Source: Xiphias gladius (Eukaryota > Chordata > Actinopteri > Istiophoriformes > Xiphiidae). Taken from it: a stretch of DNA of 64,000 bases. Location: the NCBI RefSeq assembly GCF_016859285.1, contig NC_053417.1:20263706-20327705 (forward strand). The letters run 5' to 3'. Below, in pieces: positions 13,194 to 63,391 of the stretch. A program made the translations under genes and the position numbers. The notes beneath the pieces were generated by a model, which had not been told where the DNA came from, did not search any database, and was given only the letters and a program-made list of their open reading frames with translations. Position 1 is the stretch's first letter. Each line of letters starts with the position of its first letter.

Positions 13194-16022
13194 TCATGTC
13201 GACTCCAGCGTGTCCAGCTGGAAGACGTTGTGATTGGTTGGTGTGGTGAAGAAGAGCTGTTCCTCGCTGGTAGAACGGTTATCACAGGGACTGTGCAGCC
13301 CCAGCGTCCTCTCAAAGTCCAGGAGCTGACCCATGAAGTTGAAGTTTGGGGAAATGTTGGACTTCTTCCTCTTGACAAAGTCATAAGCGTCGTTGAGAGA
13401 AAGGTTGAGTCTCTGCATCAGGTAGGCAACAGTGACTGTCACTGAGCGACTGATGCCGGCCAAGCAGTGGACCAGGATGCCGCACTGCTTCGATCGAGCC
13501 TCATCTGGAGAGGAGAGGAGAACTACCGTCAGCAGAAAGTTAACATACCCTTGCAGTTTTCAGATTGTTCTAAATAATATTTTCATTGATTAATATTTTC
13601 CTGTACTAGAATGTTTAAGGGATATTTGAGGTTACCAATGTGATTCTGGCCCTTAGTTGACAGAAGTAACCCTGTCTTTGACACAACGATGGCAGCACAA
13701 GTTTCTGCTGTTGACTGAGAGGCTCGCTTCTTGTTATTACATTTTGATCTAGAAAACACTGTACCTAACATCCTGTTAGTTACAGAAATCAGCGAACAAC
13801 TGTCAACTTAACAACACTACACCTTATTTGTGATTCTGCAGTTGAACACAGCCCAAGAAGAGTGGAAACAGCATTTCCTTCCTCATTCTACCGCTATACC
13901 TCTTTGGAAACGTATTCATGATACACAACCTTGCTACCACCAAACAAGCACGTCAAAAGATGTGGTTTCAGGTGCAGTCGTGCTGAGAGACAGCGAATCA
14001 AAAGTGAAATATTAACATAATGTTTTGGTGCCATTAAAAAACAAAAACAAATCAGTCAATCAAGATTAATATGTTATTGCTCTGTTCAAAGAGCAATTCC
14101 ATGATACGGTTGTACAACAGCTGATAAAAGCCTACACAACTGGTAAGGGAGGAAAGGTTTTTTCACATCATGCACAATTTGCTAAGAAAATATTATGAAA
14201 ACTGTCACAAACACATTCACACTCCAGTTCAGCGAATGATTATTGTCAAGAAATTATGCAAAAGTATTGATTATTACATTATTATTATTAAACGTAATTA
14301 GGACACAGTGACTTAATGAATACTTTGGTTTAAGTCTCAAATGTCAAAAGGTTCCCAGCCCACATAGGGCTACTGTACAAGACACTCCTTGAGAAAGCAA
14401 CTAAACAAGAAACTAAACACATAAACGCACTACGACCAAATTTCTTATCTGAAAAGTGTGAGTGTGACTGTTAGCCAGTTATTGACCTACTCACCTATAA
14501 ATGATATGGCCTCTGGGAAGAACTGGGACAGGTTCTGACTCCAGTGGTCCGAAATGGGAATCTGTTTGTACCTGAAGTGGCCATCATGCTCAAACATGTT
14601 GGGGAGATTGGGTGTGACGTTCAGAATGTACTTGATGTTGTACTGGCCCAGCACGTCTAGGTTAGTGGAGTCTTTGGCGCAGCCCAGGTAAAGGTAGGGA
14701 AGGATCTGGACAGGGAAGGCAGGCTGATTGCTGGGGATGGGGCTCTCCTCGGGCTCCGTGGCACTGCTCGGTTCTCGATCGGACTCTCCATCGGAACAAT
14801 CTGAGCTGATCCGGAGATTTCCAAAACCCAGAACAGAGAGCGGAGGAGAGGAACTGGGACAGGAGCTATCAAGGAGGGTCTCACAGTGCTCTGGGTACTC
14901 TGTGTGGAACTTGACAAATCCACCTGGACAAGAGCCAGAACACAACATAAGAAAGTCACGTTTAGACGTTTAAATTATTTTTAAATAAAAAGGTCACCTC
15001 GTATCATTTTTTAAATGTTTTTTCATGATTTTAATGAAAAACGACTGTCGAGGATTGAGACAGAGTTGTAAAGAAGTAGCCCGAGTTCCCCCCAAAAAAA
15101 GATCATTCATGAAATGCACGCCTGTTCCTGCTAGAGCAAAACATGGCGCAGCCATTTTGGAATTTTAATTGAGTATTGACAACACACAAACTTTCTGAAC
15201 AAACCGCAAAACCCGCAACACGGGGCGAACGTTGGCGCTGAAGTAACGACGACGTCTGTAACGTTAGAACACGTCAATCTTCGGGACGAACGCGAACAGT
15301 CTCGCGGTTCAAATGGAAAAGCCTCGGCATTTTGGAAGTTTAAAAACCCCTTCCCGTTAAAACTTCTGCTCCACTTGGCAACGTCTCCTCCAAAAAGAAA
15401 TTGTTAGCTTTTCATTCGGTTGGTAAAGATGCTAGGCTTTACTAACACTGCGCCCAAACCGGCTGAATACCCGCAAACTACGAACATTTTAACGTTGGAA
15501 TTGTAACGTTTGAAGCGGCGTCTGTTAGACCGTCTCTTACGTTAGAAGCTCCATCGCAGACACACCACGGTTGACCAGCGTTATCTGTGTCTTACTTTGA
15601 AGCATAGCTAAATCGTATTCCCTTGGGTTCATTCGACAGCGAAACTCTTTACCTTCCAAGTAATACGCTTTGCAGCCGTCTTCCCACAGTTTTTGAAGAA
15701 GCAGACCCAAAACCGACGTCGGGGCTCCGCCGTCCTGCCAGCCCAAGGTGCACTCGTCGTAGAGAACGACCGTGTCCGTCTTGCACCGTCTTATGAACTT
15801 CTCCTTATCCTCGTGGTTGGGGATGATAGTCCGGATCGGTATGTTGCCCTTTTTGAACCTCCGGAGCATCAGCCCAGGTATGGCCAGGTTTATGGCGGTC
15901 TCTATGTGGGAGGACTCATAGAGCTCATGCGAGCGGCAGTCCAGCAGGAGCAGAGAGGTGCCTCCGGACTCTAGCTCGAGTTGCAGCCATTCCACGCTTT
16001 TGCTCGGCGTCACATTAGACAT
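13194..16022 (-). CDS. dusp7: Dual-specificity MAP kinase phosphatase 7
   Basis: Cytoplasmic phosphatase that removes phosphate from Thr and Tyr of activated ERK1/2, a feedback brake on growth-factor signalling. Three coding exons join in frame: 15653-16022, 14495-14923 and 13194-13504, 1110 nt, 369 residues. The N-terminal rhodanese-like domain carries the kinase-interaction motif ([10 protein letters not shown], about residues 51-60). The catalytic domain has [12 protein letters not shown] with the general-acid Asp, and the signature HCLAGISRS with nucleophile Cys280. The C-terminus DTLEST and the run [13 protein letters not shown] fit DUSP7 better than DUSP6. The start at 16022-16020 gives a shorter N-terminus than human DUSP7 (419 residues), which has an extra low-complexity leader. 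It lies downstream of alas1 on the same strand. Exon-intron structure (three coding exons) agrees with the DUSP6/7 family. Confidence 0.95.
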
Positions 16023-16250
16023 ATCGGACTCAATATCATACTACGTGCAGGCGCAAACACTCACTACATGGTCCGCCACACGACGACGAACTACATTGCA
16101 CCCGAAAGAGAGCCGCGTTCGACGTTGTCCCGCCAGTGCCTGGCGCTTCTGCTTGAGCGAAGAGATTTCCCCTTTTTCCCCCTCTTCTCTGGTTCCATCA
16201 GTCAGCGAGTCTGACCTGCCCCAGGGCTAATGGAGACCCATTTACACTTT
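16023..16250 (-). promoter_or_regulatory. dusp7: Probable dusp7 5' UTR and proximal promoter
   Basis: Sequence immediately upstream of the dusp7 ATG. It is CpG-richer than its surroundings and has no clear TATA box. The transcription start is not determined. Confidence 0.4.
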
Positions 16251-42141: not shown

Positions 42142-45100
42142 ATGGCACCGATTTTGGATAGACGTGCTCCCGCTTTGCTCTTGGTTTGGAGCTACTGCGT
42201 CCTGGCGGATACCGCCTTTACGAACTTTACTTTGGACAACGAGTTCCACTCAAGTTTCATCCACCGTCGGCTGAAGAGCCAGGAGCGCAGAGAGATGCAG
42301 CGGGAGATCCTGTCGATCCTGGGGCTGCCGCACCGGCCGCGACCCCACCTCCACGGAAAGCACAACGCTGCCCCGATGTTTATGTTGGACCTGTACAACG
42401 CCATGTCCACAGAGGGGGACGAGGACAGATACTCCTACCCCTACAAGCCCGTCTTCACCACCCAGGGGCCCCCGATAGCCAGCCTGCAAGACAACAACTT
42501 CTTGAACGATGCAGATATGGTCATGAGCTTTGTCAATTTAGGTAGGCTCCTTCTTCTTTCACTATTTGTGGAACCTTAAACTATTCAAAAATATTTAACG
42601 CTTAAGATCAGAGTCACAAAAACTCAATAGGATAATATACATGTTACAATGATTGCAACAATTAAGGCCACTGAAGTTATTACTGTGCACTAGTTGTCAG
42701 CCCAGTAATCTCAGTTCTTTCAATAATATTTTGGCCAGAAAGATTGGAATTTGCTATGACTTATTTTGATAGCTTCAAACTCACATGAGGTCTGTTTTCA
42801 CACATTTTTGTTTTGAAGTTTCGAAAGCCTTTGTCAAGTGAACACCTATATGTATGCTAGAATTCGCTGTCGGGGCTTCATTAACAGGGAGGATTAATTA
42901 CTGGAAGTATTGGCCTCCACTGGTTGCAACTCACATTTTATCTTGTTACTACACCTTAAGGAGCAACACGTGTATTTTTCTGATGTTACCCCTGCATGCG
43001 CTAACAGGAGACCGGCACAATAACCATGTTTACATACAACTACTACACAACTGGGTGCAGTTATCCAGCTAATACCCAGGAGTGTCACATTCCAGTGTCC
43101 CTCTCTGTTAAACAGCTGTGCAGCCAGCTAATGTTCAGGTGCTTGAGCTGGGGATGATGGACCAGCCAGCAGCTAATATGTCAACCATGTGCTATCTAAA
43201 GAATGAGTAAGTCAACAGTTGAATGGGTTTAAAGTGCACTGGGTCCTCCCTGCACTCTAATCTGGAGACATCCCTACAGACATTCAGACCACAAAATAAT
43301 GCCAGTCAATGCTGATCTGAACTTAGTTCAGCCAGTTTCACTTGGTCACACAATGACTCATTATGTTGATGGATGCACTTCGCTCTAATAGAATTTTTTT
43401 TTAAATTTTTTAGTTGTTGGTTGTTAAAGGTCATTCTGTGGACCACTGTGCTTATCTAATCAGCATGTTTATCGAAAACGAACAGTCTTGGACTATTTTA
43501 CTGCTGTCAGCAACAGTCAGTGGTTGTTCAGTGCAAATAATCACAACTTTAGCAGGTGGTGTGAGATTCATGGATATATAAAGACACCATTATAATTCAA
43601 TGCTCAACAAATTATTCAGTCACAACAAATGCCCCACTTATGTTCCAAATTAGTGGCTGGGTCTTATTTTTAGCTCATTATATTTAAACGTCATTTTGCA
43701 TAAAGAAAACGATATAGTTTATGAAGGCATATATTAGTTAAATGTTTGCGAAATTTTTCAAGGACTTGGAAGTTTATATTCAATCCTGGAAAGATCATTG
43801 TTGGAGCATCTTGGCAAGAGAGAGGGAGGTGACACTGGTTCCTCCACAGCACCGTGTAATTACTGTGGGAGCTGCTGCATTGTGACTATTTTTGAGAGGC
43901 TGTGACACAGATGGATTTGACCGCAGAGACTTGCAAAGTCAAGGGCCTCGCAAAGTCAAGGGCCAAGGCTGCAGTAGGCTGACAAGAAAGAAGGGAGCCT
44001 TTGAGAGAGAAAGAAGAACGAGAGATAGTTTGGACTTGGTCCATTTCTTTTGCAAGGATGATACTCAGAGCAGACAGAAAATCTAAACAAAGATGGGTCA
44101 CATCAGCTAGAGAGAAGAGGTTTATTTAATATATCAGAGGATCATGGAAATGATTCTCACACAGCCTTCCTGGAGTCTTGTGGCTAATGTAATTACTGAT
44201 GGCATTTGCCCAGGTTGAGTCTTCTTCATGGCACATCTTCAGTGTCCCATAAATGTCACTCATTTGCATAGAAAGCGGGTGTTCTTCATTGCATTGTGTG
44301 AGCTATCTGCCACGTATTGCATCTGTCAGTAGGGTTCATTGTTAGCTTTCTCCCTGAGTCTCATGTGATACCATCAAAATATGCGTCCAGGCAGCTTGAT
44401 TTAAAACAGCAGATAATATGCTGATTCATTACCCTTCACATGAGAGCAAAGGGACACAGAGAAGTAAGTGATGGCTATCAAAAGGATTGACTATTTCCTC
44501 TCACGATTCCTTCCTCTCCTCATTTGCTCGTTGTGGGTATGTTTTCTTATTTAGGTTGTCCGAGAGCAAAATGAGTGTGGCTTTTATTTAAAAACTGTCC
44601 CTCAAAACTCTGCATGTCTCCATAACTACCGTGCCAAGGTACATTAGTCAGACTTTGTACACTGGTTACTGCTTCCTGAGAGGCCTGTTTTCATGCACTG
44701 GTTTGTACTATTGCTTAAAGTTGAAAGTCACTATGGGTACATCATAGAGCTACAGTATTGAACTGCCCATCTAGTTATCACAGCAGTGTAAAAGAACAAA
44801 GCTCAGTGCAGTGAGCCACCCACTTATTTTCAGGCAATGCCTTGATATGACAAAAAAGATGTTAATAGCTCTTCCTTTTCCTTCCTAATTGCCACTCAGG
44901 GGAGCTTGTACACTTTTTTGTCAGCTTGTGTGAGTGCTGCAGACTCCAGTGCAGCCAGCTTGGGTGGGTGTGGGCTTTGGGACAGACCCCAGGCCAGGGA
45001 CGTCCTCTCACTGAGTCACCTTAGTTTAAAAGTCCAGCTGTGTAAATGGCTTACAGCATACATTCAGAATTTACACTGCTACACGCAACACAGGTCACCC

Positions 45101-56800: not shown

Positions 56801-59306
56801 TGTGTTTATGTATCTGTATATGTATGGATGCATGTGCGTTGTGGGGGGTCTGTCTGGTAGTTGATAAAGATGGTGGTGGAAGGGGAGCTAGGAGATGTTG
56901 AAAGACACGGCGCTGACCCCCGGGATGTCCTACTGGGACATGAGAGGAGCAGGGTCACGGGGAGCAGGTCTTGGGGGTACAGTGGGGGTTGGAAATCTGG
57001 GATGTGGGGATGAGAGAGGAGGGCATTTGGATGGGGTACACCAAATATGGAGACCCAATTCATGAGAACCAGATGAAAGGCAGACTGGATGACTCTCTGG
57101 GGCTATGAGAGGAAGAGAGAGAGAAGAAAGAGGCTCATAAAGCTGTCAGAGCCCGCCTGCGTCTCTCTATCATGGCCCAGTGTGCACCATATGGATTGCT
57201 CGTAGTGCTAGTCCTCATGAATTTTTCAATTATTAGCCAACATGTGTACTACATATCTATAGACGTGTTTAATCTGGGACTGATCCAGAGTCTGGCAAGC
57301 TATGTCACCTGCTCACTAACAACTGAGGTTGATGGACTGTGGGGGAGGAATAAATCGTAAAAAATCTGAGAGGAAGAGATGTCTGTTGTCTACCTCTTGT
57401 GCAAACATGTGTTTTGTTTCCCTGGAAGTCACAACTCAACACTTGTATCAGAGTCAGAATAGCTCACGTAAACCGAAACAATGTTTTCTGCATACTGAGA
57501 TACAGTGTGTATGACAATACACATTTATTTCATTTTCATGTTCAATTTTTTGCAGTGGAGCACGACAAGGAATTCCTACCAGTGCGCCGGCATCACAGAG
57601 AGTTCAGATTCGACCTATCACGGATCCCTGAGGGTGAGGCCGTCACTGCTGCTGAGTTTCGTATATATAAAGACTTCATCCACGAACGTTACGATAATGA
57701 GACTTTCCGCATCAGCATCTACCAGGTGTTGGAGGAACACTCTGATAGGTGAGTATGTGTATATGGGTATGTGTATGTTAATTTTTTCATATTGCTTAGC
57801 AGTGACTCTGTCTGGACTAGCTAAAATGATTAGTTGATTGATCAATTGGTCAATCAACATAAAATTAAGTAACAACCATTTCTGGCCATGGTAGTGGTGT
57901 TTCTCTAGAGATGCCAACGTCAGTCGCTCGGTCGGTCAAACCACCATTTTTTTCCCAGGGCCACCATGAGGTAGACATTTTTGTTGTTTTTTTTTTAAAT
58001 GCCTCGAAAACTGTTCGATGGAGTGCCATGGAATTAGATACAGACATTCATGTCCCCCCTCAGGATTATTTGTAATAACTTTTGCTGATCTCTTAACTTT
58101 TCATCTTGCACCATCATCATGTCAAAATTTTAATTTGTCCAGTAATTTTTTTTTAATGACCAAATCCCTGCAAAACTAACGACATTCCCATCAATCCTAC
58201 ATGTATTTTCTGTTCAGTGGTAATTAGCAACTTTTAGCACGCTAACATGCAAAAGTAACATGTATATTATACCTGCTAAACATCAGCATGATACAGTAGC
58301 ATTGTCATTTTGAGCACGTTAGCACGCGGACGTTAGCGTTTTTGCCGAAAGCATTTTTGTGCCTAAGTACAGCATCACTGAACTTCTAGTGTGACTGTAG
58401 TCTCTCAGTCTTGATATTGACTATGCAACTAACTGTTATTTATCAAGAACACCTTACAAACATTAGTTGGTTCAATTTTCATAAAATTGCATTTCTCGGT
58501 TTTATATCATAGGCCTTTTTCACAGCAGACTGCTGATTTGTCATAGTAGGAAAAGCACAAGTGCAAGATTAATGTTGGCTACGCTCTATTTAAGTGTCCC
58601 ACTAAGCCATGACAGTGCGACAGTAACCCAGCATGCACAGTAACAGGACCCTGAAACCAAAGTGTAATGGAATTCAGCCATGATTACTTTACTTACTTTT
58701 ACTTTATCACTTATTTATTACTTACATCTGTGCTTTTCCTACTGTGGCATGTCTATTGTTAAATGCATGATATTTCAACCTTTGGATCTGGCAATTTGTG
58801 ATAGGCCTTTTTTATTTGCTGTTTTTTTTTTTAGACTGGACAATTATTTAATTAAAAATCAAACATATTTATCAAAAGTGAAAATCATAAATAACAGTTC
58901 TAATCTGGAATCTTCTTTAATCAGAAAAAGATTTTGCCTCACCTTCTCCATGTGGTTACTCTGGGCCATCAGGAAGGTGTATGTAACTCTGGAATGTCCC
59001 ATGTCCTACTCTCTTAGACCCCTCCTAAAGGTTTCTGTTGTCCAGAGGGAACAACACAGTCATTTATTCCTTTGCCAGAGACGGGCCTGGGTACACGAAT
59101 GAACCAGAGCTCTGTGACACACTATCTGCCCAGTCAGAAAATAGGTCGGGATACATGAATGGCCACATGAAGAACAAGAGATTTTATTCTACAATGGTGA
59201 ACGAGTAGAAAATCCAGAATTCACTGTCGGACAATAGGACTGACTTGGATATGCACTACTTCACTTGCTACTTTTCACACAGTTTTTTCCTCTTTCACAG
59301 CTGTGT

Positions 59307-59362
<56 letters not shown>

Positions 59363-60342
59363 CATTGGCTTTCTGGCTGGCCCACAAAATTCCAGCCAGT
59401 GATGGACTGTGTGTAGTGTATGAAAGGACCAGGCGTTTATAAAGCCATTATTGTCAATTAAGAAAATGAAGTGTTCCCCTGGGCCTCACCATCTGGAGCC
59501 CTCCTGCTCTCCCTCCCTACCTCCCTCCCTCTCTTGATTTCTTGCTCCATCTCTCTCTTTTTGTTTCACTCCGTCACACTCCTCTGACTCCCTCTCTCCC
59601 CTGTATTTCTTTGCTTTGCGCTTCGGTCACTTAGCTTTTCACTCTGTCGCATGGTTTCAACCTATCTCTTGTAATTGTGAATGTAATCCCTGTTGACTTA
59701 TGTTCATCTCTGACTTTAAGTATGAACTTTTATTGTCTTTTTTGATCCCTCTCCAGGGAGTCAGATCTGTTCCTGCTGGACTCACGGGTGATCTGGGCAG
59801 CAGAGGAGGGCTGGTTGGTGTTTGACGTGACAGCCACCAGTAACCACTGGGTCCTGAACCCTGGCAGGAACCTGGGGCTACAGTTGGCCTTGGAGAGCAC
59901 AAATGGTGAGTGTCACTCAGATCAGTGTATTCCTCAGCCTGTAGAAAGTTACAGCGTGAACATTTTAACGTGGAGTTGTTGGACATTGTTGGATGTTTAA
60001 CAAACATGAAGGTCTGCCTTATAACAAACATGAAGGTCTGCTCTCTCTCTTAGACCCCTCCTAAAGGTTTCTGTTGTCCAGAGGGAACAACACAGTCATT
60101 TATTCCTTTGCCAGAGACGGGCCTGGGTACACGAATGAACCAGAGCTCTGTGACACACTATCTGCCCAGTCAGAAAATAGGTCGGGATACATGAATGGCC
60201 ACATGAAGAACAAGAGATTTTATTCTACATTGGTGAACGAGTAGAAAATCCAGAATTCACTGTCGGACAATAGGACTGACTTGGATATGCACTACTTCAC
60301 TTGCTACTTTTCACACAGTTTTTTCCTCTTTCACAGCTGTGT

Positions 60343-60394
<52 letters not shown>

Positions 60395-63391
60395 CATTGG
60401 CTTTCTGGCTGGCCCACAAAATTCCAGCCAGTGATGGACTGTGTGTAGTGTATGAAAGGACCAGGCGTTTATAAAGCCATTATTGTCAATTAAGAAAATG
60501 AAGTGTTCCCCTGGGCCTCACCATCTGGAGCCCTCCTGCTCTCCCTCCCTACCTCCCTCCCTCTCTTGATTTCTTGCTCCATCTCTCTCTTTTTGTTTCA
60601 CTCCGTCACACTCCTCTGACTCCCTCTCTCCCCTGTATTTCTTTGCTTTGCGCTTCGGTCACTTAGCTTTTCACTCTGTCGCATGGTTTCAACCTATCTC
60701 TTGTAATTGTGAATGTAATCCCTGTTGACTTATGTTCATCTCTGACTTTAAGTATGAACTTTTATTGTCTTTTTTGATCCCTCTCCAGGGAGTCAGATCT
60801 GTTCCTGCTGGACTCACGGGTGATCTGGGCAGCAGAGGAGGGCTGGTTGGTGTTTGACGTGACAGCCACCAGTAACCACTGGGTCCTGAACCCTGGCAGG
60901 AACCTGGGGCTACAGTTGGCCTTGGAGAGCACAAATGGTGAGTGTCACTCAGATCAGTGTATTCCTCAGCCTGTAGAAAGTTACAGCGTGAACATTTTAA
61001 CGTGGAGTTGTTGGACATTGTTGGATGTTTAACAAACATGAAGGTCTGCCTTATAACAAACATGAAGGTCTGCATTATAACATAACATGCATAAGCCTAC
61101 ACTGTGTCTGTCCTCTGAAAGGCCAAAGATTCACAAGATTTATCCTTTGTGTGCACACAGTAAAGATAAATCAAACCCTGCTCCTCATCATTCATCGTCA
61201 GTCATCCGTCACACCCTCAGCATCATTAGCAGGCATGCAGAAAATGCACTGCGTTAACATAAGGATAACATCTCAGCAGGAGTTTGTCATCACAAGGCTC
61301 GGATTTTAGTCAGTGGAAAACTTTATCAACAAGCAGTGCGGAGTACAAGAACGTGTTTGAGAATATTATCTCCCACAGGATGGCAGGATGTTACATGTTA
61401 GCAGAAAAAAACAGACATTGTATTGCTTTCATGTTGTTGGAGGGGTGTGCATGGAGGTTGTATTCATGAGTGTGTGTTTGTGTGTTGGATCGTGTATGAA
61501 GGGTGATTAGTGAGCATGTACAGACAGGCGCATGGGACGTCCCGTCGCCAGCGGCGACCAAAAGCCTTGATTTACCACCAAACGGTGATCAGAGACACAT
61601 TCTTCTGTGTGAGAACAAGATAGACAAACATGCGCATACGTGCACGAACACACTCACACAAATTTCGCACACAACTACAAGTAGAGAGGCTTTGATGTTC
61701 AGTGTACGCTTGTTCTTGGCATTTCAGAGGTGGAGAAGGGATGAGAAAAAGGGAAAGGAATTCACAGAGGAAAATCTCATTTGTAAAACTGGATGTCGCA
61801 TTAAAGACTTGACAAAAGTGGTTTCAGTGAGATCAAACACATTCAAAAAGAACTCTCGCACGCCAAAAAAGCACTTTGTTTCACCCAATACATTGCCATG
61901 TACAAATAAAATCTAGTTGTTTTTTTTACATAACACCTTTTGCACTATTCTCTGTGCCTCCCCCTACAGGAGAGAGTATCAATCCTCGTGTGGCAGGGCT
62001 GATTGGTCGCAGTGGGCCTCAGAATAAACAGCCCTTCATGGTGGCCTTCTTCAAAGCCACTGAGGTGCACCTGCGAAGCATCCGCTCAGCACCGACAGGG
62101 GCCAAACAGCGTAACCCCAACCGCTCTAAAGGGGCAAAGAGCCAGGAGGCACTCAGAGTGGCCAATGTTGCAGGTAAACACTGAAGCTGTATGTTTTGTA
62201 CATAGAGTCGACGGTCCTTCATATTGTTGTATCGGGTCGACCCCTGCTTTAACCTGGATTTTGTTGGCTTTGTGAGGAATTCGTGGAATGGGTCACAGAT
62301 GAATGATATTTGTCGGTCCATATGAGAAAGATCCCTACATTTTCATAGCACATGGGCCAAAAGATACAGTATGTACTCACTGAGATCCAAACATTCACAC
62401 ACATTCACAAATATACTGTACAATACTTCCAAACCCAACAAAAATATGAAATTGGAATTGATGTGATTCTTGCACGACAAAACATGCAATGCATATTCAG
62501 GGCCTTTGTTTTGGAGGTGTGAGAAGGCTGTGTTTATGTGAAGCGCTGAAACATTAGACTGTAATGCCTTAGCTTCAAATATCCCTCTGCTGTCTTTGTT
62601 TATTTACAAAAGTATTACAGAGCAGTTGGGGCCAAGATCCCTGCATGGAGGTAAGGCTGTGCAGGCTTTTATGGCAGAGCACATCTGCGGTGTGCTGTAG
62701 GGCAACTGGGGCCACAACACATGGGCCAAATGGGCCTGTTTGGAACTTTGGATACCAGTGGTCTTTAACTGGATGATGAGAACCAGTCGCTCATGATCAT
62801 TTCCAATGTGAACTGCTCTCAGGAACTAACGTACCACAGAGCCCCAGAGGTATGGGCTCCCCCAGAGGTCACCAGAAGAAGAGAGAGAGAGATAGAAAAC
62901 AGACTATTCTTTTTTAACACATGGATGGCATAAAGAGAAATGTTGAAATGAGTTTGGAGAAAGCAGAGAGAATAAATAAAAGACTTGCGTTATGAAAAAT
63001 GTGGCAGGCCTACTCTGTGTGCACATCTGTTTCAGCCAGTGGAAACTCAAAGCCCAGCAGAGTAACCTCTAAGCAGGGTGGCCCATTCATTTGAAGCAAT
63101 AACCAAACTGCTGCTGTATCTGGAGGTGATTTCCTTCAGCTATTGTCTAAATGTTAATGTTTTGTATGAGGACACTGGGTGTGTTTAGATCTGTTCTTTA
63201 TCATCTCTGCCTAATTGGGTCCTGACTGCAGTAAATAGTTACTCTTGCAGCTGAATGGGATAATAGAACATGTATTGAATCTCTCTCTTTTTCTCTGTCT
63301 GTCCTTCTCCTCAGAAAACACCAGTACTGATCAGAAACAGGCGTGTAAGAAGCACGAGCTCTACGTCAGTTTCAGAGACTTGGGGTGGCAG
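42142..63391 (+). CDS. bmp7: Bone morphogenetic protein 7 (exons 1-5, 3' part outside window)
   Basis: Secreted TGF-beta superfamily ligand that signals through BMP receptors and SMAD1/5/8; roles in dorsoventral patterning, kidney, eye and skeleton. Exons: 42142-42541, 57556-57748, 59757-59905 (second copy 60789-60937), 61970-62173 and 63315-63391; phases agree when exactly one exon 3 copy is used. 1023 nt, 341 residues. A signal peptide ([17 protein letters not shown]) is followed by the propeptide ([35 protein letters not shown]) and a furin-type site RSIR before SAPTG in exon 4. Exon 5 gives the start of the cystine knot, [18 protein letters not shown]. The last two exons, with the remaining knot cysteines, lie to the right. 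The first intron is about 15 kb. Head-to-head with spo11, as in human. Which teleost co-orthologue (a or b) this is cannot be resolved. Confidence 0.97.
46100..46270 (+). repeat. Dispersed repeat, copy A in bmp7 intron 1
   Basis: Shares CAGTTGTGGAT, GCGCTCTAGTGAGT, AAGGTGAATGTG and CAAAGTAAACT, in that order, with 52838-52930. Wording resembles a known teleost interspersed repeat. Confidence 0.5.
48201..48224. repeat. Poly(T) tract
   Basis: Uninterrupted run of T on the + strand. Confidence 0.9.
49179..49226. repeat. (GGAAA)n pentanucleotide array
   Basis: About nine perfect five-base units on a purine-only strand. Confidence 0.95.
50985..51245 (+). repeat. Interspersed teleost-type repeat in bmp7 intron 1
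   Basis: Contains the phrases TTTATGCTAAGCTAAGCTA, AGAAAGCGAATAAGCGTAT and TTCCCAAAAC, which I recognise as belonging to a widespread repeat in spiny-rayed fish. Class not determined. Confidence 0.6.
52790..53060 (+). repeat. Dispersed repeat, copy B in bmp7 intron 1
   Basis: Same ordered phrases as 46100-46270 (CAGCTGTGGAT, GCGCTAGTGAGT, AAGGTGAATGTG, CAAAATAAACTAC) and continues further right with GAGGAATAAGCTATATCAGG, so it appears less truncated. Confidence 0.5.
53811..53894. repeat. (GT)n microsatellite
   Basis: Pure GT run of about 84 bases, the longest dinucleotide tract in the window. Confidence 0.95.
54647..55010. mobile_element. hAT-like non-autonomous element (MITE)
   Basis: The ends are inverted relatives: the left starts CTAGATCCGTTGATCCCAAC, and the right, read on the minus strand, starts CTAGACCAGTTGTTCCTAAC. 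No coding content. The GTTCCCAACCTT-type terminus is typical of fish hAT MITEs. A clean 8-base target duplication is not obvious. Confidence 0.55.
56284..56526. mobile_element. Short interspersed element with ACCTCCGCC inverted ends
   Basis: Left end ACCTCCGCCAAGG and the complement of the right end ACCTCCGCCAGGG are 12 of 13 identical. The body includes CCATCCCTCCACCAAGT and an ACAAACAAACAGAC-type run, seen in a common teleost repeat. Parent class not settled. Confidence 0.55.
57880..58425 (+). repeat. Interspersed teleost-type repeat in bmp7 intron 2
   Basis: Contains CAACGTCAGTCGCTCGGTCG, TACCTGCTAAACATCAGCAT and GTGCCTAAGTACAGCATCAC, phrases I associate with an abundant repeat of percomorph fish. 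It supports the assignment of the organism. Confidence 0.55.
59316..59360. repeat. (CT)n microsatellite in unit 1
   Basis: CT run about four bases longer than its counterpart at 60352-60390. Confidence 0.9.
59757..59905 (+). CDS. bmp7: bmp7 exon 3, copy a
   Basis: 149 bases between CTCCAG and GTGAGT, encoding [18 protein letters not shown] and on through [20 protein letters not shown], part of the propeptide. The length, 149, is not a multiple of three, so this exon and its twin at 60789-60937 cannot both be used without a frameshift. Confidence 0.95.
60041..61072 (+). repeat. Tandem duplication, unit 2 (carries bmp7 exon 3, copy b)
   Basis: Second unit of the direct repeat. The junction at about 60040-60050 joins GAAGGTCTGC to a short CT run, which is also what stands at the left edge of unit 1, so the break has only a few bases of microhomology. 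Confidence 0.97.
60789..60937 (+). CDS. bmp7: bmp7 exon 3, copy b
   Basis: Identical by eye to the exon at 59757-59905, with the same acceptor and donor. If spliced after copy a, the frame shifts and a TGA appears at 60821-60823. Productive mRNA needs one copy only. It may be a real duplication or an assembly error. Confidence 0.9.
62174..63314 (+). other. bmp7: bmp7 intron 4
   Basis: No exon or clear repeat seen. A short CT-rich stretch precedes the exon 5 acceptor. Confidence 0.7.

Follow-up and report, generated by a model that had tools for sequence, protein, structure and literature searches.

The window, by which we mean the whole 64,000-nucleotide stretch of Xiphias gladius DNA analysed here, holds exons 1 to 5 of a bmp7-family gene on the forward strand. 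Exons were located by tblastn with a human BMP7 sequence. The coding part of exon 1 runs for 400 bases from a presumed start ATG to a donor GT (42142-42541) and is followed by exon 2 (193 bases, 57556-57748), by two copies of exon 3 bounded by splice sites, designated 3a (59757-59905) and 3b (60789-60937), by exon 4 (204 bases, 61970-62173) and by exon 5 (77 bases, 63315-63391). When joined with a single exon 3, the frame scores as a TGF-beta propeptide (PF00688, E 6.8e-88). Exons 6 and 7, which encode the mature domain, were found neither in the window nor elsewhere on its contig C18 among 46 matches. A run of 2500 N, the sole such run among the loci analysed, begins exactly at the window end, where these two exons are expected. 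This run, 2.9 kb from the duplication described below, may be an assembly gap.

The tblastn matches support the assignment to the bmp7 family made in an earlier, sequence-only reading of this DNA, and allow it to be narrowed. In the matched portions of exons 1-4, 230 of 283 positions (81.3%) are identical between the window gene and human BMP7, compared with 182 of 283 (64.3%) for a second bmp7-like gene on C21. The latter has matches to all seven exons over approximately 9.0 kb, while exons 1-5 of the window gene alone span 21.2 kb. In zebrafish, bmp7b is reported to cluster with mammalian BMP7 and to be longer than bmp7a (PMC8964609). Because the window gene is likewise closer to human BMP7 and longer, it is labelled bmp7b-like here and its C21 paralogue bmp7a-like, both by similarity. 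Two further relatives lie on C5 and C11. Upstream of the bmp7b-like gene, on the reverse strand at 13197-16040, another gene is represented by open frames that encode a rhodanese-like domain (PF00581) at 15540-16040 and resemble a phosphatase at 14490-14969 and at 13197-13559 (HCLAGISRS); it is probably a dual-specificity MAP kinase phosphatase.

Exon 3 of the bmp7b-like gene is contained in a 1.03 kb unit that occurs twice in the assembly, head to tail. Self-BLASTN of the window aligned copy 1 (59009-60041) with copy 2 (60045-61073), both on the forward strand, over 1033 columns with one mismatch and four gap positions (E = 0), a match far above chance. The sole substitution among the 1029 bases aligned base by base is A at 59194 against T at 60230. 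The second difference is four bases in a CT tract, read by Tandem Repeats Finder as (TC)24.5 in one copy and (TC)22.5 in the other, and the pairwise alignment places the copies 1036 bases apart before this tract and 1032 after it. Exons 3a and 3b, of 149 bases each, are identical, as are the 40 bases on either side; both are preceded by AG and followed by GT. The near-identical duplication, its offset of 1032-1036 bases and its two differences had all been described by eye in the sequence-only reading, and the alignments bear each of them out. A whole exon with flanking intron stands twice head to tail at high identity, as in recent intragenic tandem exon duplications, and the case would, if real, be a new instance of this known kind of event. 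Dating from the single substitution, with assumed rates of 3e-9 to 1e-8, gave 1.2 thousand to 0.9 million generations, a range too loose for use.

The copy edges have one base in common and three extra. The left edge reads CCTA(CT)3TAG, the junction GGTCTG(CT)5TAG, and the right edge GGTCTGC followed by ATTATAAC. At the junction, the alignment leaves three extra bases, TCT (60042-60044, forward strand), which can alternatively be read as a CT run two units longer than the one in which copy 1 begins. The right breakpoint falls inside a minisatellite (61030-61089, forward strand; Tandem Repeats Finder) whose 24-base unit is present in 2.5 copies. This arrangement is as compatible with a join between contigs as with end joining or template switching in the vicinity of simple repeats. 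If the duplication arose in the fish, a routine break-repair event or a template switch between the short CT run and the minisatellite would have duplicated the unit. A homology-driven duplication was rejected, as the edges share one base only.

When 892 of the 1033 bases of copy 1 (59009-59900) were compared with the whole genome, 12 matches were returned. These comprise the two copies themselves, three exon-3 paralogues (on C21, C5 and C11) and seven short matches (37-112 bases) that lie in the CT tract or in other sequence rich in pyrimidines. A transposon-mediated duplication was also rejected, as beyond the two copies these bases match only exon paralogues and short pyrimidine-rich stretches. 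The search likewise revealed no retained haplotig or other copy of the unit, since the two copies on C18 were the only ones at high identity across the genome for the 892 bases used; the absence of a haplotig elsewhere was our own criterion and is supportive only. No further copy of the flanks was detected. The right flank (61090-61960) returned one match in the genome search, itself, and the left flank (57760-58960) had no match above 85% other than itself at 100%, with 40 of 5127 candidates scored owing to an interspersed repeat. The other 41 rows for the left flank, in the same scored set of 40 of 5127, are this repeat at 69-85%. It lies in intron 2 at approximately 57950-58418, outside the duplicated unit and its breakpoints, and is 69-84% identical to sequence at 39 further genomic positions (again with 40 of 5127 candidates scored).

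Joined-exon translation establishes how each combination of exons affects the frame. Either copy alone keeps the frame, which is open and the same for exons 1-2-3a-4 as for 1-2-3b-4, and exons 1-2-3a-4-5 remain open for 341 residues. When exon 3 is omitted altogether, a stop occurs at 62025-62027. Use of both copies shifts the frame and produces a TGA at 60821-60823 on the forward strand, as the earlier reading had noted, and this stop lies 114 bases upstream of the junction between 3b and 4. Stops more than 50-55 bases before an exon junction usually trigger nonsense-mediated decay (NMD), and decay of such a transcript is therefore expected. The intron between 3a and 3b is 883 bases long, which far exceeds steric limits on splicing; given this length and the intact, identical splice sites on both exons, the default transcript should contain both. 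A transcript of this kind would shift frame, stop at the TGA and be cleared by decay. The resulting allele would be a null or a weak one, and chance skipping of one copy would still yield some normal mRNA.

The sequence-only reading had held that the duplication, if real, forces mutually exclusive use of the two exons or else lowers bmp7 output through NMD. We searched for a feature that would exclude double inclusion and found none among those considered, namely the length of the 883-base intron, the AG/GT sites, which are identical, and perfect complementarity, which reaches at most 10 bases. Exclusion by a steric or simple RNA-pairing constraint was rejected on these grounds, and with it the notion of forced exclusion; lowered output through NMD stands as the default prediction. 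The longest perfect complement among intron 2, the 3a-3b intron and the 3b-4 intron, at 10 bases, is close to what we roughly estimate for chance. A working pair in which 3a or 3b is used but never both, leaving protein output normal or regulated, is nevertheless suggested by three properties of the exons: a length not divisible by three, a frame kept by either copy alone, and a frame broken by both together. U2AF1 exons Ab and 3 offer a parallel, being a tandem pair of 67-base exons, also not a multiple of three; including both creates a stop, and such transcripts are reported to be removed by NMD (PMC5224494). The U2AF1 pair, however, is described in the same source as old, regulated and slightly diverged (by seven amino acids). 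The bmp7b-like exons encode the same peptide, nothing in the exons or splice sites tells them apart, the intron between them is too long for steric exclusion, and the duplication is probably too young for control to have evolved. We consider such a pair highly improbable.

A nearer precedent, in our analysis, is the exon-2 duplication of dystrophin (DMD Dup2). As in the bmp7b-like gene, one internal exon is doubled, the frame shifts and a premature stop follows soon after; the protein is reported to be essentially absent in the mouse and 80% of patients to have the severe form (PMC8047432). Dup2 differs in being a disease allele whose transcripts have been measured, whereas the present case concerns another gene, with a paralogue present, and is known from DNA sequence alone. 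This precedent, together with the failure to find a bar to double inclusion, makes loss of output the better prediction, and double inclusion with NMD appears likelier than mutually exclusive use. The same disease bears on a further reading, that the duplication is real but nearly neutral, with the spliceosome usually skipping one of two identical copies and leaving near-normal bmp7b mRNA. Approximately 20% of patients with the exon-2 duplication are reported to be milder (PMC8047432), which we would attribute to some normal mRNA. Against this, the mouse with the same duplication is essentially without dystrophin according to that source, and the splice sites of 3a and 3b look canonical by their AG and GT; near-neutrality is the least probable of the readings considered. 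Whether the duplication is real or false, mutually exclusive exons should not be deduced from a frame argument alone.

The earlier reading correctly posed the choice between a real duplication and an assembly artefact, and the assembly was sampled for comparable structures. We took 10 kb at each of 14 round coordinates of our own choosing on C5, C7, C11, C18 and C21 (140 kb, 0 N) and scored these stretches for tandem duplications without a gap, 100 bases or longer and with 90% identity or more. Two of the 14 stretches hold other such duplications, of unlike divergence. This equals 14 per Mb (interval 1.7-52), a rate from a small, hand-picked sample in which real duplications and assembly faults are not separable. 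In stretch L030 (2782-5375), a 1.3-kb unit is repeated in tandem at 96.6% identity without a gap; the same 18-base T-rich sequence stands at its left edge, junction and right end, and part of the unit resembles interspersed repeats at 66-92%. In stretch L033 (2428-2966), a gapless tandem unit of 267 bases has GT tracts of unequal length. Its copies match in pieces (227 bases at 98.7% and 49 bases at 100%; 94% over 258 of the 267 bases), and a genome search places the unit only at these two copies. Around the window and the paralogues, 171.5 kb of sequence other than N contained no such pair besides the bmp7b-like duplication. Because neither the window nor the 14 sampled stretches contain an N, the assembly is contiguous over these regions.

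The strongest competitor to a real duplication is a false one. In this scenario, the assembly placed end to end either two haplotypes (heterotype) or two versions of a single haplotype that contain errors (homotype), or it failed to merge a 1.03 kb contig overlap and closed it without any N. False duplications are documented in several studies (PMC9516828, PMC8081667, PMC2864568), and partial tandem exon duplications are among the known assembly errors, for example in GABRG2 (PMC8081667). The resemblance to such false exon gains, of which GABRG2 in zebra finch is one, is close: near-identical exon copies lie close together and the few differences look allelic, one base and a dinucleotide-tract length being common both as allelic differences and as sequencing errors. 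A false copy is also the simplest way of keeping the gene whole, as double inclusion would break it. The three odd bases at the junction could likewise be the trace of a contig-end join or of a gap filler, as could breakpoints located in a CT run and in a minisatellite, and the two other sampled tandem duplications might stem from the same assembly fault. The 2500 N beyond the window end, if an assembly gap only 2.9 kb from the copies, also count on this side. In an older-assembly survey, most mis-assembled contigs are given as shorter than 2,000 bases, and 316 of 381 suspect coding contigs in chimpanzee and 427 of 585 in chicken fitted mRNAs lacking the duplicate (PMC2864568).

Other evidence weighs against an artefact. 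The window contains 0 N and hence no gap lies between the copies, in contrast to false duplications as described in one account, which most often have a gap between the copies although some are joined without one (PMC9516828). The identity of the copies exceeds that of most false duplications in the older-assembly survey, where the reported median is 98.1% and few are above 99.5% (PMC2864568). In addition, the genome search found no second copy of the flanks, and the unit is far shorter than long reads, provided that long reads were used. For stacked haplotypes, the probability of at most one substitution in 1029 bases is 0.73, 0.19, 0.036 and 0.0004 at assumed heterozygosities of 0.1, 0.3, 0.5 and 1%, values that carry no weight for an error within one haplotype. 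From the sequence evidence taken together, the duplication is somewhat more probably real than not, while an artefact keeps a substantial, though smaller, share of the probability.

The explanation we prefer overall is a young 1.03 kb duplication in the bmp7b-like gene that is most likely a real structural variant, has NMD as its outcome and is tolerated; as a whole, we give it a probability of roughly 0.52. It is weakened by the consideration that a gene with a developmental role is unlikely to carry a frameshift at high frequency. The variant could be fixed or segregating in the species, and segregation seems the more likely. Zebrafish provide some guidance on tolerance: bmp7a nulls are reported dead at 12-24 hours, whereas fish lacking bmp7b survive but grow slowly, have more melanin and see less well (PMC8964609). 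Because these bmp7b nulls are viable, a bmp7b loss allele is plausible in an outbred fish, above all when heterozygous. The fish could tolerate the allele through the putative bmp7a-like paralogue on C21 and, if heterozygous, through a normal other allele. The duplication is thus plausibly a loss-of-function variant of an ordinary kind, which the fish tolerates and which perhaps segregates.

The two outcomes differ in their consequences. If false, the second exon is one more exon gain for removal from annotation; if real, the duplication constitutes a natural loss-of-function or low-output bmp7b allele. A narrow literature search that combined the gene, duplication and fish found no published bmp7 exon duplication in fish. 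It is a rather long shot that the duplication is not only real but fixed or common in this species, in which case bmp7b would be naturally silenced or strongly reduced in healthy fish, an effect on pigment, eye or growth would be expected, and dispensability of the gene would extend beyond zebrafish. Since the zebrafish knock-out is described as dark, slow-growing and visually impaired (PMC8964609), a real duplication would predict a scorable trait in Xiphias gladius.
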